Virus record (IMG/VR): IMGVR_UViG_3300046002_005615
Span: 1-24,131 of that record
From: a virus
Length of the DNA stretch: 24,131 bases
Direction: 5' to 3' (one strand)
Part shown: one piece after another, positions 719-12,451 of the stretch
Layout: each line of letters begins with the position of its first letter
Numbering within the stretch: position 1 is the stretch's first letter
Notes under the pieces: generated by a model
Databases searched by the model: none
Told to the model about the DNA's origin: nothing
What the model saw: the letters and a program-made list of their open reading frames with translations, nothing else
Program-made: the position numbers and the translations under genes

Positions 719-1720
719 TTAATTTTTGTTTGTGTTTCTTTTTTCTTTTCTTGTGAGTTTTAGAAATGGTTTTAGGAAGTTCACCCAAGCTTCATCATTC
801 TTGGGAAGATACTTAAAAAGACCGTCTTCCATCATTAGTCTCATTAAGTTTTTATATCCTCTGTCTGTGGGGTCGATTGTATCGGTATGAATTTGTTCTA
901 CAAGATGTTTACCCTCATCTGTGATTAGAGGTTCGTGAAGGTTAACAATTTTGGAATTTATTTTGTAAACCTCTTCTCCAAATATACCACTTTTTGTCTT
1001 ACCAGTCAAAATATTTGATATACTTTTAATATGTTTCTTTTGCTGGATATTTCGGGCATTATCTAATAATTCTTCGACAGTGCAGGATTTTTCCTGCATT
1101 TGTGGGAATAATTTCACAAGAGTTTTTTCACCCAAACCCTCGATACCATCGATGTTGTCTGATTTGTCCCCTGTGAAGATTTTACACACGGTCACATTTT
1201 GATGAGGAATGTCTACCTTGTTAATTGAAATCTTGTCTCCGTTCTTATAATAAGATTTTGTAGTCGGTGAAAAAATTGTAACTCTTTCTGATATTAGTTG
1301 TGTTAGGTCTTTGTCCGCAGAAAATATAATTATTTTCTCATCGACAGACACTTTACAATAGTAAGCAATAAGGTCATCCGCCTCATTATTAGTCATTTCG
1401 ACTTGTCTAACAAAAACCTCCTCCAAATACATCTTTACTCTTGCTTTTTGTTGCAAGTAAGATTCGTATTTGTATTCATTCATGTCTTGTCGACGGTTAC
1501 CCTTGTATTGTGGGTATATGGATTTTCTTATTGATGAATTGGAATTACCATCCCAAAAGACAATCACTTTATCGTGATTATGTTCCTCCAAAAATCGACG
1601 AATAGTATTAATGAAGTGGTAGACACCCCCAACGTGAGAACCTTCACTGTAGAGTTCCTTAACCCCGTGAAATCCAATTTTGAATAGGTTGTCCCCATCC
1701 ACCAACAATGTCTTTGTCAC
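719..1720 (-). CDS. rnh: RNase H / 5'-3' flap nuclease (T4 Rnh, FEN-1 family)
   Basis: This 333-residue protein carries the ordered acidic motifs of the FEN/5'-nuclease superfamily. They are LLVDGDNLF (Asp8, Asp10), VIVFWDG (Asp57), the basic RKSIYPQYKGNR arch segment (65-76), NNEADDLIA (Glu113, Asp115, Asp116), FSADKDLTQL (Asp136, Asp138) and TGDKSDNI (Asp185, Asp188), followed by the helix-hairpin-helix GIEGLGEKT. These residues bind the two metal ions. T4 Rnh is about the same size (305) and removes RNA primers and short flaps from lagging-strand fragments, working with gp32. The start is a GTG at 1720; no ATG in frame gives the conserved N-terminus and there is no clear ribosome binding site. 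The gap to the recombinase upstream is 23 bases. All catalytic acids are intact, so it is probably active. Confidence 0.93.
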   Translation of the reverse strand: MTKTLLVDGDNLFKIGFHGVKELYSEGSHVGGVYHFINTIRRFLEEHNHDKVIVFWDGNSNSSIRKSIYPQYKGNRRQDMNEYKYESYLQQKARVKMYLEEVFVRQVEMTNNEADDLIAYYCKVSVDEKIIIFSADKDLTQLISERVTIFSPTTKSYYKNGDKISINKVDIPHQNVTVCKIFTGDKSDNIDGIEGLGEKTLVKLFPQMQEKSCTVEELLDNARNIQQKKHIKSISNILTGKTKSGIFGEEVYKINSKIVNLHEPLITDEGKHLVEQIHTDTIDPTDRGYKNLMRLMMEDGLFKYLPKNDEAWVNFLKPFLKLTRKEKRNTNKN

Positions 1721-1743: not shown

Positions 1744-2745
1744 TCAATCTTCTTTTTCCTCTGTAAGTGTAAAATCACCTTCACTACCGATGATATCTTT
1801 CCAATAGTCGGCGTGTTCTTTTTTGTATACTTCTATTGACGCTTTTTCTTCTGCCGAGTCTTTACCCGCCAAGAATCCGTGTGGCGTTACTATAATTTTA
1901 CCATCATCGAAACCAAGTCCGTTGATGTGGTTTTTCATTACAGAAATTTTACTTCTTACTGCGAATTTAACTGAGCGTTTATCTTTAGTCGCAGTAATCT
2001 TTGTGGTACCCGCACCTTTTTGATTTCCGAATAAGAAAACTAATGATGAGTTCAACCAAACAGACTCTCCACCTTTAGCTTTAATCTTTGGTTGTCCGAA
2101 TGGATTATCCGGTAGTTCAACCCATGGCTGATTAATAATTATTAGTGTATTCTCATATTCGTTATCGGACTTTCTTGAACCTGAAATTCTTTGGTTGATG
2201 CCCATACCTATCTTGTCAGATAACACTGAAGCATTGTGTTGTTTTCCACCTTTACCTTCATAAGTCATTTTACAAGGTACAGAACCAACAGAGTCCCAAA
2301 TAAAACAAAGACTATAATTCAATTCCCCTTTTTCTTGAGCATCAAGTAGTTGATTTATATAATCTGTGATTTGTTCAATATAACTGAAATTATTATTGAA
2401 TAAAAAGAATCCGTCCCAATCAAGTTCGCCCGTTTCTTTATCCACCACTTCTTCACACTGAAAACCCATTAATTTTGCATGGTCAAAACTCCACTTCTGT
2501 TCTGTAATAATAAAAACAGGAAGAATTTCTTTTTTCTGTGCATCTACAGCAGCTTTTATCGCGGCAGTTGTCTTACCTGTATCAGAGTGACCCAAGAACA
2601 TATTAATATGTCCAATTGCAGGGCCGGGTAGTCCTACCGCATCCAAGAAATCTGAACCCAAATCCAAAAATCTTTGTGGTTTATATTTCGCCGAAGTTGA
2701 GAACTTCTTTTTTAAATTACTAAAATCGTTTTTCTTAATAGCCAT
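1744..2745 (-). CDS. uvsX: UvsX/RecA-like recombinase
   Basis: This is a RecA-fold ATPase of 333 residues, close to T4 UvsX (391) though shorter. Numbered from the ATG at 2745, the Walker A loop GHSDTGKT spans 52-59, a candidate catalytic glutamate lies in IITEQKW (Glu82), and Walker B is LCFIWDS ending at Asp151. A QP-type motif (LIIINQPW) follows, as expected for a RecA-type sensor or DNA loop. The C-terminus is acidic (TLTEEKED). In T4, UvsX forms filaments on gp32-coated single strands and drives recombination-dependent replication and repair. The gene overlaps the 3' end of the upstream 97-residue ORF by 11 bases. A TTG six bases upstream would add two residues; I prefer the ATG. Confidence 0.9.
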   Translation of the reverse strand: MAIKKNDFSNLKKKFSTSAKYKPQRFLDLGSDFLDAVGLPGPAIGHINMFLGHSDTGKTTAAIKAAVDAQKKEILPVFIITEQKWSFDHAKLMGFQCEEVVDKETGELDWDGFFLFNNNFSYIEQITDYINQLLDAQEKGELNYSLCFIWDSVGSVPCKMTYEGKGGKQHNASVLSDKIGMGINQRISGSRKSDNEYENTLIIINQPWVELPDNPFGQPKIKAKGGESVWLNSSLVFLFGNQKGAGTTKITATKDKRSVKFAVRSKISVMKNHINGLGFDDGKIIVTPHGFLAGKDSAEEKASIEVYKKEHADYWKDIIGSEGDFTLTEEKED

Positions 2746-3028
2746 CTTCAATAATTTTAATCATGGGTAATTTGTTCTTCTTTTCTCCGTCATAAAAGTT
2801 AGTATCTTCTTCATATAAAGTACCTAATTCTTCTTCATGAAAAGTTACCAATCTCAAATTCAGTTCTCCTTCTTTGGATTCCTCCTTCAACATTCCAAAC
2901 AAAACTGTATCACCGATTTGTTTAGCCCTACCAGAAACATAACTTTTTTCTTTTAAAGCACTCAAAATCTCATAAGTAAGAATTTTGTTGTCACGCAATT
3001 GTAATTCTATTTCTTCTTTGAATGTCAT
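2735..3028 (-). CDS. Hypothetical protein between gp32 and uvsX (97 aa)
   Basis: I do not recognise this small, charged, acidic protein. From the ATG at 3028 it has 97 residues: a helical N-terminus (MTFKEEIELQLRDNKILTYEILSALKEK), then a probable beta region with GDTVLFGMLKEE and LNLRLVTFHEEELG, and a mixed-charge tail ending in MIKIIEDGY. The open frame runs further upstream to about 3163, but that part overlaps the gp32 gene and the terminator hairpin, so 3028 is the better start. There is no Shine-Dalgarno sequence; the start lies 10 bases after a terminator-like hairpin. Its stop overlaps the start of uvsX, so translation is probably coupled. The position between an SSB and a recombinase would suit a mediator or loader such as a UvsY or gp59 analogue, but I see no sequence proof. 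Confidence 0.75.
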   Translation of the reverse strand: MTFKEEIELQLRDNKILTYEILSALKEKSYVSGRAKQIGDTVLFGMLKEESKEGELNLRLVTFHEEELGTLYEEDTNFYDGEKKNKLPMIKIIEDGY

Positions 3029-3071: not shown

Positions 3072-3926
3072 TTAGAATGGTAAATCGGAATCGGCCTCAG
3101 CATCTGCTTGAGGGTCTGTGTATTTTTTAGAACCTTTAGATGAACCTCCGATAGTTTCTTCATTCACAGATGAATCTCCGTAAACATATCCACCTTTTTC
3201 ATTATCCCATTTTGGGGTTTCTCCTCTAGCGATTGCTTCGAGATATTCGACAGGTTTTTTGGAATATACGTCAGTCCAACTCAACTCGTCATTAATCCAA
3301 GCATCTGCCTGTGCTTTCTCACCATGAACAGGTGTAGGGTCATCATACATAATTGCAGATACAGTTGTATATTCTTTTCCTTTTGGAGTTTTGGACTTAG
3401 CAAGTTCGATAATTAAGTCACGACCTTTTTCAGAGTCAGTAACATCTCCTTTATTTCTCCAAATCGGAATGATTTTATCAAGGATTCCTTCGTTCTTGTA
3501 GTTGTGTTTAAAACGCCAAAACTTTGGTCCGTCTTGTTCATTATCACGGTCAATAACTTTTACAATGTAAAACTTACGTGATTTGTACTGTTTGGCAAGT
3601 TCCTTGTCGGAATCTTTACCTGTACCCATCAACTCATCATACACTTCGTTTAGAGGTGAACGTTCGTTGTCGTTCTTTCCTGGGTCGTAGAACTTTTGCC
3701 ACTGACCTCCAACTTGAATTTCATGGTACCAAGCTTCTTTGAATGGTGAAGAACCATCTGTAGTTGGGAGAATCCTAACCCTTCTTTGTCCTGACTTTTC
3801 TTTGTCTCCGAGAATAAGAGCGAAATACTTTTTCATTCTTTCATCTTGAGACATTCTTGATTGGGCCCCGCCCCCGATTTGGTTTTTTTCATACTGTGCC
3901 AATACGGCGTCTAATACATTACTCAT
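3072..3926 (-). CDS. 32: Single-stranded DNA-binding protein, gp32-like
   Basis: This 284-residue protein matches the layout of T4 gp32 (301). The N-terminus is short and helical. The OB-fold core includes RRVRILPTTDGSSPFKEAWYHEI (48-70) and a conserved middle block YKSRKFYIVKVIDRD...PKFWRFKHN. A Gly/Ser linker (GGSSKGSKK) leads to an acidic tail. In T4, gp32 coats single strands and organises replication, recombination and repair. Two things are odd. The T4 zinc site needs one His and three Cys; here His68 could match, but the whole protein has no cysteine, so a T4-type zinc site is impossible. Its last residues, DSDLPF, look like the tip of bacterial SSB proteins. The gene has its own strong promoter candidate and is followed by a terminator, consistent with high expression. 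Confidence 0.9.
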   Translation of the reverse strand: MSNVLDAVLAQYEKNQIGGGAQSRMSQDERMKKYFALILGDKEKSGQRRVRILPTTDGSSPFKEAWYHEIQVGGQWQKFYDPGKNDNERSPLNEVYDELMGTGKDSDKELAKQYKSRKFYIVKVIDRDNEQDGPKFWRFKHNYKNEGILDKIIPIWRNKGDVTDSEKGRDLIIELAKSKTPKGKEYTTVSAIMYDDPTPVHGEKAQADAWINDELSWTDVYSKKPVEYLEAIARGETPKWDNEKGGYVYGDSSVNEETIGGSSKGSKKYTDPQADAEADSDLPF

Positions 3927-4927: not shown

Positions 4928-7900
4928 TTAATAAATTATAGTCCCGGGGAGAATAGTTCTATCTGGTGTTGGGTTATTTGGGTCTTCAGCGAATGTATCG
5001 GCCTTTACATTTATCTTCATACCTTGCTCCAATATTACAGAATCGTTTTGGACCGCTTGTATAATTTCGTCTCTTGTCATTGAAAATGTTTTTCTATCTG
5101 TCGATACGTATCCATTTAACTGAATTTGTCCTTGTTTAACGATGACTTCTCTTTGAGTACCATCTGATGATTGTCCTCCAACAAGTGTCATAGAATTAAT
5201 CGGATTACCATAAGTTCCTAATAAAGCGGCTTTAGCTTCATCAATTAGTTCTTGTTCTGTCGCAAAAGCACTTGGGACGCCTTCATATATTTTACTACCG
5301 TTATCATAAACTATAATAAACTTTTTTGGACCCAAACTGTTTATGGTATAGGTAAATCTCCCACTTCCTGTTGACTGTACTTTGGAAACCGAGTAATTCA
5401 AAGAAAAAGAATTTTTAAATAACCACGTTGGTGTTTGGTTATTTATTTGGGCAGATAATGTCACCAAACCTGAAGGGGGGTTCGTTACCGATGTCGATAT
5501 TATAGTCTTGAGACCACTCGAACCGTTTTGTATGTTCGTTTGAGAAGCAATGTTTTCGGGTGACTGTGATGTGACAGGTGATTGTGTTTGATTACCACTA
5601 ACTTGTGAAGAGGGTGAACTTGGGTCTGTTTGTGCAGGATTGAAAACGAAATTACTTACACTAGTACCTATTCCGTACTTTGTCTCCACAACAATTTTTG
5701 TTCTAACTTGAGTTGTGGGTACTGGTACAGGTTTAGGTAAACTAAAAGTCAGTAATGTATTATCGGGGTTCACCGTTATATTGTCCTTAAGAATTATACT
5801 ATTATTAACTTGAACTTTAATAACATCTTTAAAATTAACTCCAGTGACCTTGATAATAGAATTTTCAATTCCTGATGATGGGATGAATGAAACAATTACA
5901 GGTGGGGGGCAACTCAATCCAGAGGTGTTTGATATACCAGAAGTTCCGCTTGTGCCAGAAGTTCCGCTTGTGCCAGAAGTTCCGCTTGTACCAGAAGTTC
6001 CGCTTGTGCCAGAAGTTCCGCTTGTGCCAGAAGTTCCAGCTCCAGTGTCATAGTCTTTTAATCCTACAGACTCTGCGGACTGTTTAGCGCTTATGAATGA
6101 ACTTTTAACGTTAGTGAATTCAGTTGGGTTTTTATCGAAGTACTCTGGTGAAACATTAGAGTTCGGCCAAAAACAAACATAGTATTTTACTAACCCACCT
6201 AATTGAGATATTCTTTGAATATTTCCTTCCAATCTACTCTTCATGAAAAGTATAAACTTGTCTAAATCTGAAAATCCTGCAACAGGTAATGGATTAGGTT
6301 TTGACGATAAGGTCTTTCCTAAATTAACACAACAATAAGTTCTTGAGAAAAAGTCATCTCCCGATTGCCCGTAATCATAATCTAATGTTATTGTTGCAAA
6401 GTTATTATCGAATGATTTGAACGCCCCATCATTACCATTATCGTTTTTCGTAAACGTCCTTACATAACAAATATTATAAATAATGAATTGTAAAATTTCA
6501 CTGTTTGGTATAAGTCTTTTTATTGCATCTGCAAATTCTTGTTTGTTTTTATTTGTAGGTGTTCCTTGGGTCGCGGTATACTGAAGGTCTTTATATTTTT
6601 CAAGAACTTGAGTTTCACAAGTATTTGGTGCGGCTAAAGTGTTTTCTGCACTTTGAACAACTTGAGATGCCTTTTGGTTATCGGTTGTTGGTGGTAGATT
6701 AGAATTTTCTTTTTTCGTTGTAACAATTTGTTCTATTTTTGTAAGTAAATTTTTGTTTAAACTTTGTAAGAAATTATCTATGGCAGGCAAATCAAAAATT
6801 CCCTGTCTTATTCCTTTGAAAGTGGTTTCGAAATTTCCTGAACCAATTGTATGACTTACTTCAGTAATCATATAGGGTCCATTAAACATCGGAACGTGTC
6901 TCAAATTGAAATACATTGTTGGTTGAATAAGCGCATTTCCAAAACATTGTATGGTACACTCATAGCTTCTTTGTTTATAAAGATTATATAAACTTACGTT
7001 TTGAGTTGCGGTATTAGTTCCATTTGCCTGATTTACAATATTCAGTTGGGTGTTGATAGATTCAGATGTGGCTTTACCTGATTCCTGTCCAACGTTAAAA
7101 GAATAAAAAATATTTTGATTACGTGTTCCAATGTCCACATTAAATCCAACACATCTGTTTGATAAAGCATAATCTTTTTTATCCTTAAGATTTTCTATAA
7201 GTGGATTTTCAGATGCTCTTCTCATTTCAAAACCATCATCTCTAAATCTAAAGTTTCCTTTGGGTAAGTCTAAATACGATGATGGTTTACCACTATAAAA
7301 CGCAATCAATTTTGGCCCTGAATTTCTATAGTCTACATTAAGAAAAGTACCCCACATGTTGTTAGCAAATTCCAAAGAGTTTTCACTTCGGTTGGCAGAT
7401 ATACCTGTTACATCTTGTACGTTGTAAAAGTTTACATACGCAGGAAGAGGCATTACAACAAAATTGTTCTTTATTAATATCGAACTCAAAAAAGTATAAA
7501 CACTCATTTCCATGTTGAGTGAGTTCTTATTGAGTACATTTTTCAAATCAAATATGTCTAATAATATTATATCCCCGATATTTCTAGATGCTCTGTCAAG
7601 AAACATCATGTCCTCAAAAAGGGTCTTTGTTTTGAAATCGCTCCCCGCAATCCATTTATCATTAAGAGCCTTAAACACTTCATAATTTTCAACCTTACTC
7701 TGTTGCCCTTCGAATACGCTTTGAATTGCTCTTTCAGGTACTTCGAATTGTTCAGGTAAATCTTTTCTCACTCTTGTCAAAACATCATTGAGAAACTGAT
7801 TTGCAAAGTTTTCTGAATTAGAAACGTAAGAGGCAAGGGCTCTTTTGAAAGTCGTTTGATTAGCCGAAGAAACATTATTCAACTTATAGGTTGCATACAT

Positions 7901-10900
7901 TTTGATTATGGGAGCCAAAATCACAATGTTGTCTACAGTAAATTTGATATTGTTATCAACAAAAAAATCAGTAATGTATGAACCTTTTGATGTATACCTT
8001 AATTGGGGAATTTCAGAAAATCCTACTTCAACTTCTAATTTAGTCCATTCTTGCGGATATCTAGTTTTACTTTGAATCAAGGTTGTATTTCCACCCACAG
8101 TTGGTAAGGACCCTTTCTCGTAGGCCTCAAATTGTATTGGGTCTACCGTGGTTCCCAAATATGAATTCCAAATTCTTCTTTGATAAAAACTAGGATTTCC
8201 AAAGGCAAACAATTTATCATACTCCAAGAATTCTTTTATATTATTGGTGAATTTTTGTATTTGTTTTTCCAAAACCGTATTAAAGTAATTTTCATAACTT
8301 TGAGTTTTATCTTGAGCAGGTACTTTCATTAAGGTTTTAAAAAAAGATTGAAAGTTTGTATAAACCGCCTCTGGGTCTGATAAACTTTGACCTATAGATA
8401 TTGTTTGTGTTGGGATATCCATATTTTTAGCGGCCTTTGAAAATTTCAAAAACTCGTCCTCAAACTTATCAAGTATTTTGGTTTCGAACACAGAAAACAC
8501 TTCATCAATTTTACTATAAGTTGTTGCTGAACGAATTGTGAAAGGAGCTTGATTAATGTATGTTGGCTCAATTATATTAACATAACTGTCAGGACCTGGT
8601 TTTTTCAGGGGGAAGTTTTCAAAATATCCGTAATTTGGTGCCGCCCACAATAATCTAATTGAGCCGTTGTATAGTGCTTCATTGTCTGTCAGATTAACAT
8701 ATGTTTTTCCTGCTCCGTCGACACATTCAGATTGCGCTTGGTTAATTGTAGACCCGAAAGATGGAAGAACGTAATACCCCACCTCTGGAAAATCCCCAAC
8801 ACATACATTATTACTATTAAATGAACTCTGAATTATTTCGGGCAAAAGTACTGAGAATGGTTCCACTTTAGTCAAAACATCGTTTTGGTATGCTCCTTGG
8901 ATGTTTGAAGTTTCTAAATTAAAAATTTTTAGTCCGTTCGCAACACTTACTTGTATCTCCCTATCAGTATACGTAGAATACAAATCTTTTCCATTATAAA
9001 AATAACTAAAGTAATTTATCAGACCAGGATAAAATCCTGTAATAATTTGATTTCCTTCGGTAGATGTTCTCTGTAATATAATTTGATTTTCTAAAACCTC
9101 TCCATCTGTATTTGGTACTGGAGTATCAAATTTATACAATTTGGTTTTTGACTTTGTTATAGGGTCGTAGTTGTCTACATATTCAAAGTTTTTCCAAACC
9201 GCATTCAAAATATCATTCCCACTTTCTTTGTAAGTTTTATATCTGTGCCAAATGGAACCAAATTTCAATATCCAAGCGTAAGGTAATTTGTGTACCCCAC
9301 TGAATTTTTTTAGACAGCTTGCAATATAATCCAAATCAGTAATTTCTAATCCGTCGTAAGTTTTATACCTTTCCCTCAAAGAAGCCAAAGGTAGTGAGTT
9401 AAGGAAAAGATATGCCGCGGTTATGTAAGGATACTCAGCATTTGCCTTTTCTTGTTGTGTGCCATAAATTATTGAATTTATAAAATAAGGGGTATTCAAC
9501 ATTGATGTTGTTGTAGTTCCAGAATAATCCGGATTTGGCGAAAAACTCTCAAGAAATCCCTCTGTTGGTATTTTCGGTTCTCTAGTTTTATAAAACTCTA
9601 ATAATGTTTGTGTGGTTTCTTGTTCAGTAGGATTATTAGTCTCTTTAAAATAAAAGTTGGAGACAGGTCTATTTGTATTATAATCAGTTTGTCCCGTAAA
9701 ATTCGATATTACTGTTGCACTTGGAAATACTTTGAGAACTTTATTAGTATTATAAACCATTTGTCCCTCACTCATTGCACTGAAACTCAAATTTTCTTTA
9801 CACCAAGTTTCATTCGTAAATGGATACGTGTCAATTATTTTAGGTTCGTTTAATGTTGATTGAACAATTAATTCCAAGGCTTTGGACTTTGCAGTATAAA
9901 GTGGTCTTCTTCCAATTTGATTAAGATTATAAACTCCGAAAGACTCTTCAGTTTGTTCTTTGAGATACGGAGTTACATAAAAATCTCTAATGAAATCTTG
10001 ATACGATTTTCCCGTTCCTGAATTAGAAATGTTTGCAAGGAAGTTGGGATAATTTGCGGAGTTTAAATCGTAGTTCTTAAGTTTGAGTGTCAGATAAGGT
10101 GAACTTACCCCCAAACTTGTTTTTATATTACTAGCCTCAACCTCGAGATTGTATTTGTTTATTTCATCAAATAAATTGTTGTTTCCGAGTAATCTTGCAA
10201 ATCCATTATAAACACCCCCAACATACTGTCTCTCCCATATCTCATAAAAGAATTTAATTTCCTCTTTATTAGTATAAGCAATACCACTATTTGGAAACTC
10301 CAATGGGATATAATTCATTATGTTTGTATCTACGTCTGATTCAGTAGGTGGTTGAGCTATTGGGACATTAAACTTTTGTGTTAAACCCTTCATATATTCT
10401 TCTACGAACTCAACTTCAGGCCACTTATCAAAAAGATATCCTTTAGTAAGGTTAACAACAGTGGGGTCTGCAATATATTTGAGCTGGAATCTTCCCTTCT
10501 TATCCTCTGGGGTCTCAACAAAGAATTGAGGCCATGGGTAAACGGGAATTTGTGCGGTTGTTAATCCTTGATTACTTTGTTGTGCGTTCGACGCTAATGG
10601 TAAAAATTCTACATTATCCGAACCTAATACCGAACTTTGATTGTTAAGAATTGCCGCTTTTCTAACTGGGTCATATTTTACATTCCAAGCATTTGTATGT
10701 ACATCATCCATAAGTCTTATGAACCCCTCTGCAGATGCCATAATAACCGCCATAATGTTTCTTACTGTAGGACTAAATCCTAGACCTGTTGCCTGACTTT
10801 CAATTTTTTTCGCCAAATCTGCGGATAGAGCTTTTTCAACTTCAGCCAATTTTTTGTTAGCATCGGCCTCTATTGAATATATTGTACCATCAAAATACTG

Positions 10901-12451
10901 TCCCGCTTTACCCTCAAAAAAGAATAACTCTATCGATTGAGTCTTTTTTGGGTTTCCTTTTTCATCAGTTTCTTGTGTTATTGTATTGAAACCCAAATTA
11001 TTGATGGTTTTACTTATGTCGTCTGATGTTGGTGCAAGAATCCCATATTGTTGTTGAGTTGTCGCAATAAAATTTATTTGACTAGCAACAACACCTCTTC
11101 TTATCATGTTTATAGATATAGGATTTGTAATTGGAAACTTTCCATCAGGTGTACCTAATGTTGGGTTTCTAGCTAGTTCAGCGTTCGAAAGTAAAATGAT
11201 ATCGTTAAGTTTTGAGAGGGCTGTTACCTTTTGTTCTTCGTTCAATTTTTTGAATGTATAAGCGAACTTATTATCAGTCAAAACAATTGGTCTAGGATTC
11301 ATGTACGTATTAAACCAAGAATCGTTGTCACTTCTGATTTGTGCATAGTATGATTCAAGATTTTTTTTGTAATTTCTGATATTGGTAAGTGGTTCTAAAT
11401 TTGCGGGAGGATAAGATTGACTAATTAACTTTTCAAAATTTTCTAACTTGTTCATCAATTGAACCAATGTGAGTTCAGGAAAATTTTGAGGTATCAATTT
11501 TTTTGCCTTATATTCAGAATATACCTCGACAATTTTTTGATAACCCTTTTCTGTTACAATTTGGGTTCTTACCGCATCGTTACTATTTGTCCCTTCACCT
11601 ATCTTACCTGTTGTTGCGTTTGCTGTCGCATTTTGAGATGTTTGTCCTTGTTCTGTAGATTGTTGTACATCAAATCTTGTCGCATACATGTGAGGTGCCG
11701 CCAACAAGTGTCCCATAGAGAGTTCATTCAGAATATTGAATTTGTAACCAACGAATTCCAACTCAATTGTGTAGTTTCCACTATATGAATTGAATCTTGA
11801 GTTAAATTTCAATAGGTTCAATTGGTACCTTATCGCCTGACCATAATATCCTTTTAGGGTTAAATAAAATGCGGGATACGGTAAATTAAAAAAGGCTGCG
11901 TATGGTGAATTATTTCCAAGTTGGAATAACGCTTTACCCTGTACGTCTTCCAAAGTCATTGAGACACTTGGTATGAAAGAGGTGCTTGTTCTTATATTAA
12001 TTGATGTGATGCCCAATAGTCCATTATCAATAGCGTTATTTGGATTTGATATTGTGTTAACTATGTAAGGTTTCGAGCCGTCTTTAGGTACAACACCTAC
12101 TTGTCGAGGTTGGTTTTGACCTCTCAAATTAACCGCATCTCTTCCAGTTAACTCATCATAATATCCGGTACCCAAGAAATTGTCCTTGGTTGGTTTCAAG
12201 AAGTTTATTTTTGCTATAGATACGGTTCTAATTCCATCTTGACCTGTGGCACCTACGGCAAGTTTGGTTCTTGGCAATAGCTCAGCCTCCAAATTAGCAT
12301 ACATGACAAGGTTCTCATGGTCAACAAGCCTTTCTGAAATTTTTTTGGTTGTGGGGTCCACAGTCTTGTTCGGGTCAACAACTATTATATTGTTGTAATC
12401 GAAGTCCACATAAATGTTACCACTGTTATCAGCTGTCAGATTACCTGCCAT
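4928..12451 (-). CDS. Giant baseplate hub protein with Gly-Thr-Ser repeats and TIG-like domain (2507 aa)
   Basis: The N-terminal part (about residues 145-250) has hub-like features: [29 protein letters not shown], and [16 protein letters not shown] second hub-type segment at about 1825-1890 contains [32 protein letters not shown] and [12 protein letters not shown], as seen in gpD/gp27-like hub proteins that form the ring under the tail tube. The long stretch between is unrecognised. After it come an unrecognised domain (about 1940-2130), a Gly-Thr-Ser repeat linker (about 2133-2175), an IPT/TIG-like beta-sandwich (about 2180-2275, with FIPSSG and IKVTGVNF), a Ser/Gln-rich linker and a C-terminal domain of unknown type. 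T4 gp27 has about 390 residues, so this protein is unusually large. It overlaps the gp53-like gene by 11 bases. No lysozyme motif was seen. Confidence 0.75.
5919..6040 (-). repeat. 18-bp tandem repeat coding (Gly-Thr-Ser)n
   Basis: Five near-identical 18-base units run from 5937 to 6026, with a partial sixth to about 6037 and a degenerate one at 5919-5936. One unit differs by a single base. They code an uninterrupted run of about ten Gly-Thr-Ser triplets in the hub protein, just before its TIG-like domain. Such a tract suits a flexible or collagen-like linker and is prone to replication slippage, in steps that keep the frame. Confidence 0.92.

Follow-up and report, generated by a model that had tools for sequence, protein, structure and literature searches.

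A bacterial SSB-like tail on the gp32-type ssDNA-binding protein of a clade of T4-related phages

The gp32 locus

The window, by which we mean the whole stretch of 24,131 bases analyzed here, is a lone virus record that carries on its minus strand a gene for a gp32-family single-stranded DNA-binding protein, followed by a small ORF and by genes for a recombinase and an exonuclease (Table 1). The gp32 ORF closes after 284 codons at a TAA stop (3072-3074, minus strand), and the C-terminal end of the protein reads ADAEADSDLPF. An earlier note had described the protein as a gp32 homologue without cysteines ending in DSDLPF, and this observation of a cysteine-free gp32 with an SSB-like end is confirmed, as the ORF, its sequence and the match to Pfam PF08804 (gp32) agree. 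PF08804 is the sole Pfam family found in the protein (E 2.3e-9; 38 bits, where the curated cut-off is 26.8), its match covering residues 44-229 and profile positions 1-207 of 208; no PF00436 domain was found, and the protein further matches the PHROG SSB families phrog_1192 and phrog_224. A phmmer search of PDB sequences with the single window sequence returned no match, and a profile built from 100 gp32 relatives matched just four PDB sequences, every one of them gp32. Near the N-terminus, a stretch reading L-D-A-V-L-A-Q-Y-E-K (residues 4-17; 3876-3917, minus strand) is highly conserved across the clade, is predicted to be helical, and occupies the position of the T4 N-terminal cooperativity domain.

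Table 1. Positions of the features at the gp32 locus of the window
Feature	Position	Strand	Basis or remark
5'-3' exonuclease (RNase H/FEN-like)	719..1720	minus	Pfam PF02739, E 2.3e-30; next in the cassette
UvsX/RecA-like recombinase	1744..2751	minus	PHROG 97, E 4.6e-15; constant neighbor of gp32 in the clade
Small ORF, 97 codons	2735..3028	minus	no Pfam match; between gp32 and uvsX
gp32-family ssDNA-binding protein	3072..3926	minus	284 aa, no Cys; Pfam PF08804, PHROG SSB families, fold
T4 zinc-site region, gp32 residues 63-102	3621..3740	minus	His68 retained; S90-P91-L-N-E in place of CPxC, at start of predicted helix 91-102
Variable low-complexity linker, about residues 240-270	3117..3209	minus	length variation; low pLDDT
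14-residue tail block D-P-Q-x7-D-L-P-F, residues 271-284	3075..3116	minus	no indels in 156 distinct relatives, among the matches listed
SSB-Ct-like tip DLPF, residues 281-284	3075..3086	minus	[DEN]LPF in relatives; Bacteroidota SSB tips

Among the matches listed, uvsX lies downstream of gp32 in all 215 clade loci that extend far enough and the exonuclease is present in 209 of them; a relative of the 97-codon ORF follows gp32 in 50 of the 215, so this ORF comes and goes. Past the exonuclease, the same strand of the window holds a 150-residue ORF and then an ORF cut by the window's end, which is taken for a DnaB-like helicase. Three other window ORFs scanned match T4-like baseplate or tail-tube families. 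One 2507-residue ORF (4928-12451, minus strand) is tail-like by position and contains a Gly-Thr-Ser repeat run.

Predicted fold

Two AlphaFold2 runs gave the core block of the window protein a pLDDT of about 64-86, and in fold searches against solved structures the best matches of the model were RB69 and T4 gp32. Foldseek matched six gp32 chains to it at E values of 7.5e-9 to 8.5e-8. With VIA, the first model matched 2a1k_A (Z 14.1, rmsd 4.1, 192 aligned) and 1gpc (Z 13.7, rmsd 3.8, 191 aligned), and the second model gave Z 13.8 and 13.6 against RB69 and T4 gp32; four gp32 entries fell at Z 11.5-14.1, and the next-ranked row stood at Z 4.7. T7-type SSBs were not among the matches listed in the fold searches, where an absent row amounts to no exclusion. 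The relationship to gp32, against which an unrelated predicted structure would have spoken, is thus upheld by the models, in which the predicted fold is closest to that of RB69 and T4 gp32.

The zinc-site region across gp32 groups

The zinc ligands of T4 gp32 are described as His64, Cys77, Cys87 and Cys90 (PMC3012046). In alignment, His68 of the window protein matches His64 and a cysteine stands at none of the other positions, in keeping with the claim that the T4 zinc site cannot form; the further suggestion that the zinc loop has been structurally replaced fits both AlphaFold2 models, in which a predicted helix (residues 91-102; block pLDDT about 76-85) begins at S90-P91 in the place of the knuckle. 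In an alignment of 100 gp32 sequences chosen as group representatives (A2), all four ligands are present in 14 of 14 T4-type representatives, the window protein and its 33 clade representatives keep the His without any Cys, and the region is free of Cys in 16/16 immuto and 26/28 cyanophage-type representatives. Counted over distinct sequences, a Cys-Cys or Cys-His pair occurs in the region in 24/25 T4 and 7/9 Lysinibacillus-like proteins, in 2/122 of the cyanophage type, in 0/55 immuto and 0/6 Microcystis-like proteins, and in 0/57 of the window clade (first scan, best 80 of 600 matches). At the position of the T4 Cys-Pro-x-Cys, the zinc-less groups mostly carry [SD]-Pro-x-x-[ED].

The state of the zinc site changes at least four times on a gp32 tree built without the zinc-site columns, a quick tree with SH-aLRT support only and with long-branch warnings. 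Loss of the site is ordinary because most of the other gp32 groups sampled lack it too, and its absence from most cyanophage-type and all immuto gp32 means that it is no family-defining feature; a special standing of the missing zinc site pointed out in the earlier note is not supported. We likewise rejected the absence of cysteine as the main point, since it is frequent in other gp32 groups and is shared by a quarter of the proteins of similar length in a related 321-kb contig (G001), where 10 of the 41 ORFs between 250 and 320 residues have none. Although commonly regarded as a part of gp32, the zinc site can be dispensed with.

Several individual proteins depart from the pattern of their groups. 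Two cyanophage-type gp32 (L209 and L237) retain the His, the Cys and the CPxC amid zinc-less kin. In Lysinibacillus-phage-like gp32 (L089-L092) the zinc His is replaced by Arg and the Cys-Pro-x-Cys reads Cys-Pro-Ile-His, so that the metal site is perhaps altered. The gp32 of Bacillus phage SBSphiC (L344) is without zinc ligands and has a very long tail with acidic and lysine runs.

A conserved tail block in the window clade

Three scans of IMG/VR, each taking the best 80 of 600 matches, yielded 239 loci from the clade of the window; their 156 complete, distinct gp32 sequences are, among the matches listed, 49-100% identical to the window protein and down to about 48% identical among themselves; four of the first scan's best 80 matches sit on contigs of 317-326 kb. 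All members found are metagenomic, and no named phage isolate was found in the clade. A search of bacterial genome contigs found no genome carrying the gene; a search with L592 matched 0 of 395 Bacteroidota genomes, a result that shows little because it has no positive control.

All 156 sequences, among the matches listed, end in [DEN]LPF (135 D, 18 E, 3 N) and carry D-x-Q, which occupies positions -14 to -12 and leaves exactly 11 residues to the end (DPQ in 148). Variability is high at positions -15 to -30, length changes never fall inside the 14-residue block, and the spacing from the YLE motif of the core to D-x-Q ranges from 33 to 48 residues, again among the sequences listed. Two of the 12 seed peptides of the second and third scans lie in the tail (QEEDEADE and KDPQENEK) and could bias these scans toward sequences with a conserved tail; the six of the first scan all lie outside it, and its 57 LPF ends in 57 distinct sequences (best 80 of 600 matches) are therefore free of tail selection. 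The codons of the tail D, P, Q, L, P and F vary synonymously among 61 distinct genes of that scan (best 80 of 600). A DNA pattern for DPQ-x7-[DE]LPF-stop, using no core sequence, matched at least 120 stretches, and the 118 proteins read from these loci (L525 onward) are all gp32 relatives of the window protein; at about 50% identity, divergent members still retain the tail together with the S-P-L-[NT]-[ED] segment.

Outside the clade, a PF end was found in none of 217 distinct complete sequences of the other gp32 groups sampled (83 + 39 cyanophage-type, 55 immuto, 25 T4, 9 Lysinibacillus-like and 6 Microcystis-like), and on the quick gp32 tree the tip arises once, in a clade with full SH-aLRT support. 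The end DSDLPF has the elements of the SSB-Ct motif, namely acidic residues, a hydrophobic residue, Pro and a terminal Phe. The SSB-like tip that the earlier note had recognized is kept in 156/156 relatives among the matches listed, and relatives lacking it were not found within the clade. Surveyed across gp32 of known and probable Bacteroidota phages, as that note had proposed, the tip is present in every window-group sequence listed and is absent from the Flavobacterium immuto group (0/55 PF). On the sequences sampled, it is a real, clade-wide feature of single origin, and larger than had been noticed. Chance was rejected as its source: the expectation for a [DEN]LPF end is 2.9e-5 per protein and 0.011 across the 392 ORFs of G001, whose gp32 is the sole ORF ending in [DE]LPF, and the tip is invariant in relatives under synonymous codon change. 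In AlphaFold2 models the tail reached a pLDDT of 71 and 61 with a clade-rich alignment (53 and 46 in an earlier run), and linker residues 251-270 stayed at 34-41 in the clade-rich model.

Gene content and likely host of the clade

Pfam scans of G001 covered 224 of its 392 ORFs and took the best 25 families per set (of 52, 28, 38 and 26); the matches listed include Gp23, the T4 portal, family B polymerase, PhoH and DnaG-N. The same contig (L349-L365) also encodes superoxide dismutase, a Clp protease domain, DnaJ, glycosyltransferases and collagen-like repeats. The possibility that clade phages carry a second, bacterial-type SSB was rejected, as PF00436 was found in none of 10 related contigs, 10 of 14 control genomes being positive. 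The gp59-like loader (PF08994), present in T4 and in both cyanophages searched, was not found in G001, G002, G004, G407 or G408, and likewise not in immuto, Microcystis and Lysinibacillus phages; its absence tracks a deeper split for this reason, and loss of gp59 is a weak candidate for the cause of the tip. As for readers of the tail encoded by the phages themselves, PriA and RecO were not found in G001 and G004, nor were family A polymerase and Pol III alpha in G001, G004 and G005.

SprB repeats and Por secretion tails are marks of Bacteroidota. Among the Pfam matches listed, both the SprB repeat and Por_Secre_tail occur in G001, and Por_Secre_tail was not found in a second related contig (G004). 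In the window, none of 12 genes is preceded by an SD-like motif, against 29/442 and 5/407 genes in clade loci and 0/11 in immuto; the counts are 3/8 in T4, 6/15 in cyanophages, 5/8 in Herelleviridae and 36 of 121 genes at Bacteroidota ssb loci. The clade probably represents T4-related phages of Bacteroidota: its scarce SD-like motifs and the marker domains, which come from one contig, speak for this host, and the share of such motifs at the Bacteroidota loci themselves speaks against it.

Comparison with bacterial SSB tips and other phage proteins

SSB is present in 117 of 118 Bacteroidota genomes. Of the 72 Bacteroidota SSB ORFs whose ends were counted (71 genomes; 73 rows with one antisense ORF, L399, left out), 71 end in PF, 65 in LPF and 59 in DLPF; E. 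coli SSB ends in DIPF, and the bacterial-type SSBs of one Bacteroides phage and one Flavobacterium phage end in DDLPF. The clade tail resembles the bacterial SSB-Ct in its acidic residues, its LPF and its free Phe, DLPF being the commonest Bacteroidota form, but it is borne on a gp32 core rather than the PF00436 fold, it adds the invariant D-x-Q, and its conserved unit is 14 residues long where SSB-Ct has 6-9. D-x-Q at -14 was found in 0 of 75 ORFs ending in [LIV]PF at Bacteroidota ssb loci.

With T4 and RB69 gp32 the window protein shares the OB-fold core, the family HMM and a flexible C-terminal tail; the T4 tail, however, ends in LLNDL rather than LPF, and the window protein keeps only the His among the zinc ligands, with no PF08994 found in five related contigs. 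The nearest named kin of the window by recombinase is Flavobacterium phage immuto, whose recombinase is 43.7% identical to the window's, whose gene order is likewise gp32-RecA-exonuclease-DnaB, and whose gp32 also lacks Cys and has the [SD]-P helix start; yet this gp32 is about 18-23% identical to the window's and ends in KFDDLFN(E). A terminal Phe is also found in T7 gp2.5. This protein and Enc34 ORF6 are, like clade gp32, phage SSBs with an acidic tail making protein contacts, but their T7-type fold is described as so unlike that of T4 gp32 that the two structures cannot sensibly be aligned (PMC5686142). The SSB of phage HK620 likewise has a PF end and a RecA-like gene adjoining its own, but it is presented as an SSB homologue and not as gp32 (PMC5928155). 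In a literature search covering mostly titles and abstract openings, no publication on an SSB-like gp32 tip was found.

A proposed role for the tail

Proteins that read SSB-Ct are described as taking its terminal Phe into a hydrophobic pocket, where a basic lip holds the carboxylate and a basic ridge the Asp residues, and binding is lost when the Phe is missing (PMC10164576). In HK620, the last six residues of the SSB (ending NDYPPF) are reported to be required for stimulating the phage's own RecA-like Sak4 (PMC5928155), and the T4 gp32 tail is reported to recruit Dda through residues 248-270 (PMC11551737) as well as gp61, gp59 and RNase H (PMC3012046). The window protein is best explained as the replication and recombination ssDNA-binding protein, of the gp32 type, of a phage related to T4 whose host is probably a member of Bacteroidota. 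The OB-fold core would coat ssDNA, as suggested by the fold; a subdomain would be held without zinc by the predicted [SD]-P-capped helix at the position of the T4 CPxC knuckle; and a flexible linker would bear the 14-residue tail D-P-Q-x7-[DE]-L-P-F with its C-terminal Phe free. Given the SSB-Ct features of the sequence, the Sak4 and Dda precedents and the constant uvsX neighbor, we propose that the tail recruits DNA-processing enzymes in the fashion of SSB-Ct: a hydrophobic pocket would take the Phe, a basic lip the carboxylate and a basic ridge the acids. As the last four letters of the tail are the commonest Bacteroidota SSB tip, host SSB partners would be the likeliest readers of the LPF end, and the D-x-Q part probably supplies an additional, phage-specific contact. 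The homology, the absence of zinc ligands, the invariant tail with its single origin and the match to host tips are shown, whereas recruitment, the partners and the D-x-Q role are read here from sequence, and we give this explanation as a whole a probability of about 0.5.

Within such a scheme, clade gp32 may be a mimic of the host SSB hub, a version that we put forward as doubtful: with the SSB-Ct of the host phylum on the gp32 tip, PriA, RecO, RecG and RecQ would load on phage ssDNA, D-P-Q would add a phage grip or outcompete host SSB, and phage ssDNA may be disguised from SSB-sensing defense. Phage SSBs, gp32 included, are reported to trigger several defense systems (PMC10732053).

The tail might instead recruit phage partners only, such as UvsX, primase or helicase, its likeness to SSB-Ct being convergence on a shared pocket chemistry. 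The absence of D-x-Q from host SSB ORFs, together with a 14-residue unit exceeding SSB-Ct, points to a reader that host SSB lacks; uvsX follows gp32 in every clade locus listed with room for it, and the HK620 pair of SSB and Sak4 (PMC5928155) and the T4 partners Dda (PMC11551737), gp61, gp59 and RNase H (PMC3012046) are reported precedents. However, immuto phages keep the gp32-uvsX-exonuclease order with a different tail, and an exact match to the commonest host tip would then be a coincidence of convergence, which leaves this account possible without being probable. As immuto phages infect Flavobacterium with another gp32 end, the tip is unnecessary in the Bacteroidota phylum, and the longer block, the host SSBs without D-x-Q and the tipless immuto would together speak for a partner encoded by the phage or for an additional contact. 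A mainly intramolecular role, in which the tail folds back over the DNA-binding surface of the core until ssDNA displaces it, seems to us unlikely. Such gating is proposed in a model of the T4 C-domain (PMC5892887), and the rise in tail pLDDT after a disordered linker could reflect docking on its own core, but conservation alone also raises pLDDT, other gp32 groups gate with other tail sequences so that the invariant LPF and free carboxylate need more explanation, and a recruiting tail could gate too.

It is very improbable that the LPF end is a ClpXP protease signal setting the amount of gp32. The terminal LPF of SsbA is reported to be such a signal in some strains of Streptococcus mutans (PMC5143411), and G001 encodes a Clp protease domain protein; yet, of the species tested in that report, S. 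mutans ClpXP alone reads LPF, and in some strains only (PMC5143411), the D-x-Q is left unexplained, and a replication SSB needed in bulk would be an odd target. Scarcely credible, and rejected here, is the view of the tip as a functionless shared relic retained through the closeness of the relatives sampled: one clade does hold all members and the tip has a single origin, but members diverge to about 48% mutual identity, adjacent tail positions vary freely, and the codons of the invariant residues change synonymously.

Significance

Among phage SSBs gp32 is the textbook case, with a tail known for recruiting phage proteins. Here a large clade carries, in place of the usual gp32 tail, an invariant block of 14 residues that ends in a tip of the bacterial SSB type; it has a single origin, and sister groups without the tip serve as controls. 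The clade tail is a peptide that could be tested for host or phage readers, and it makes a case for asking whether these phages connect to the SSB network of the host or disguise their own ssDNA.
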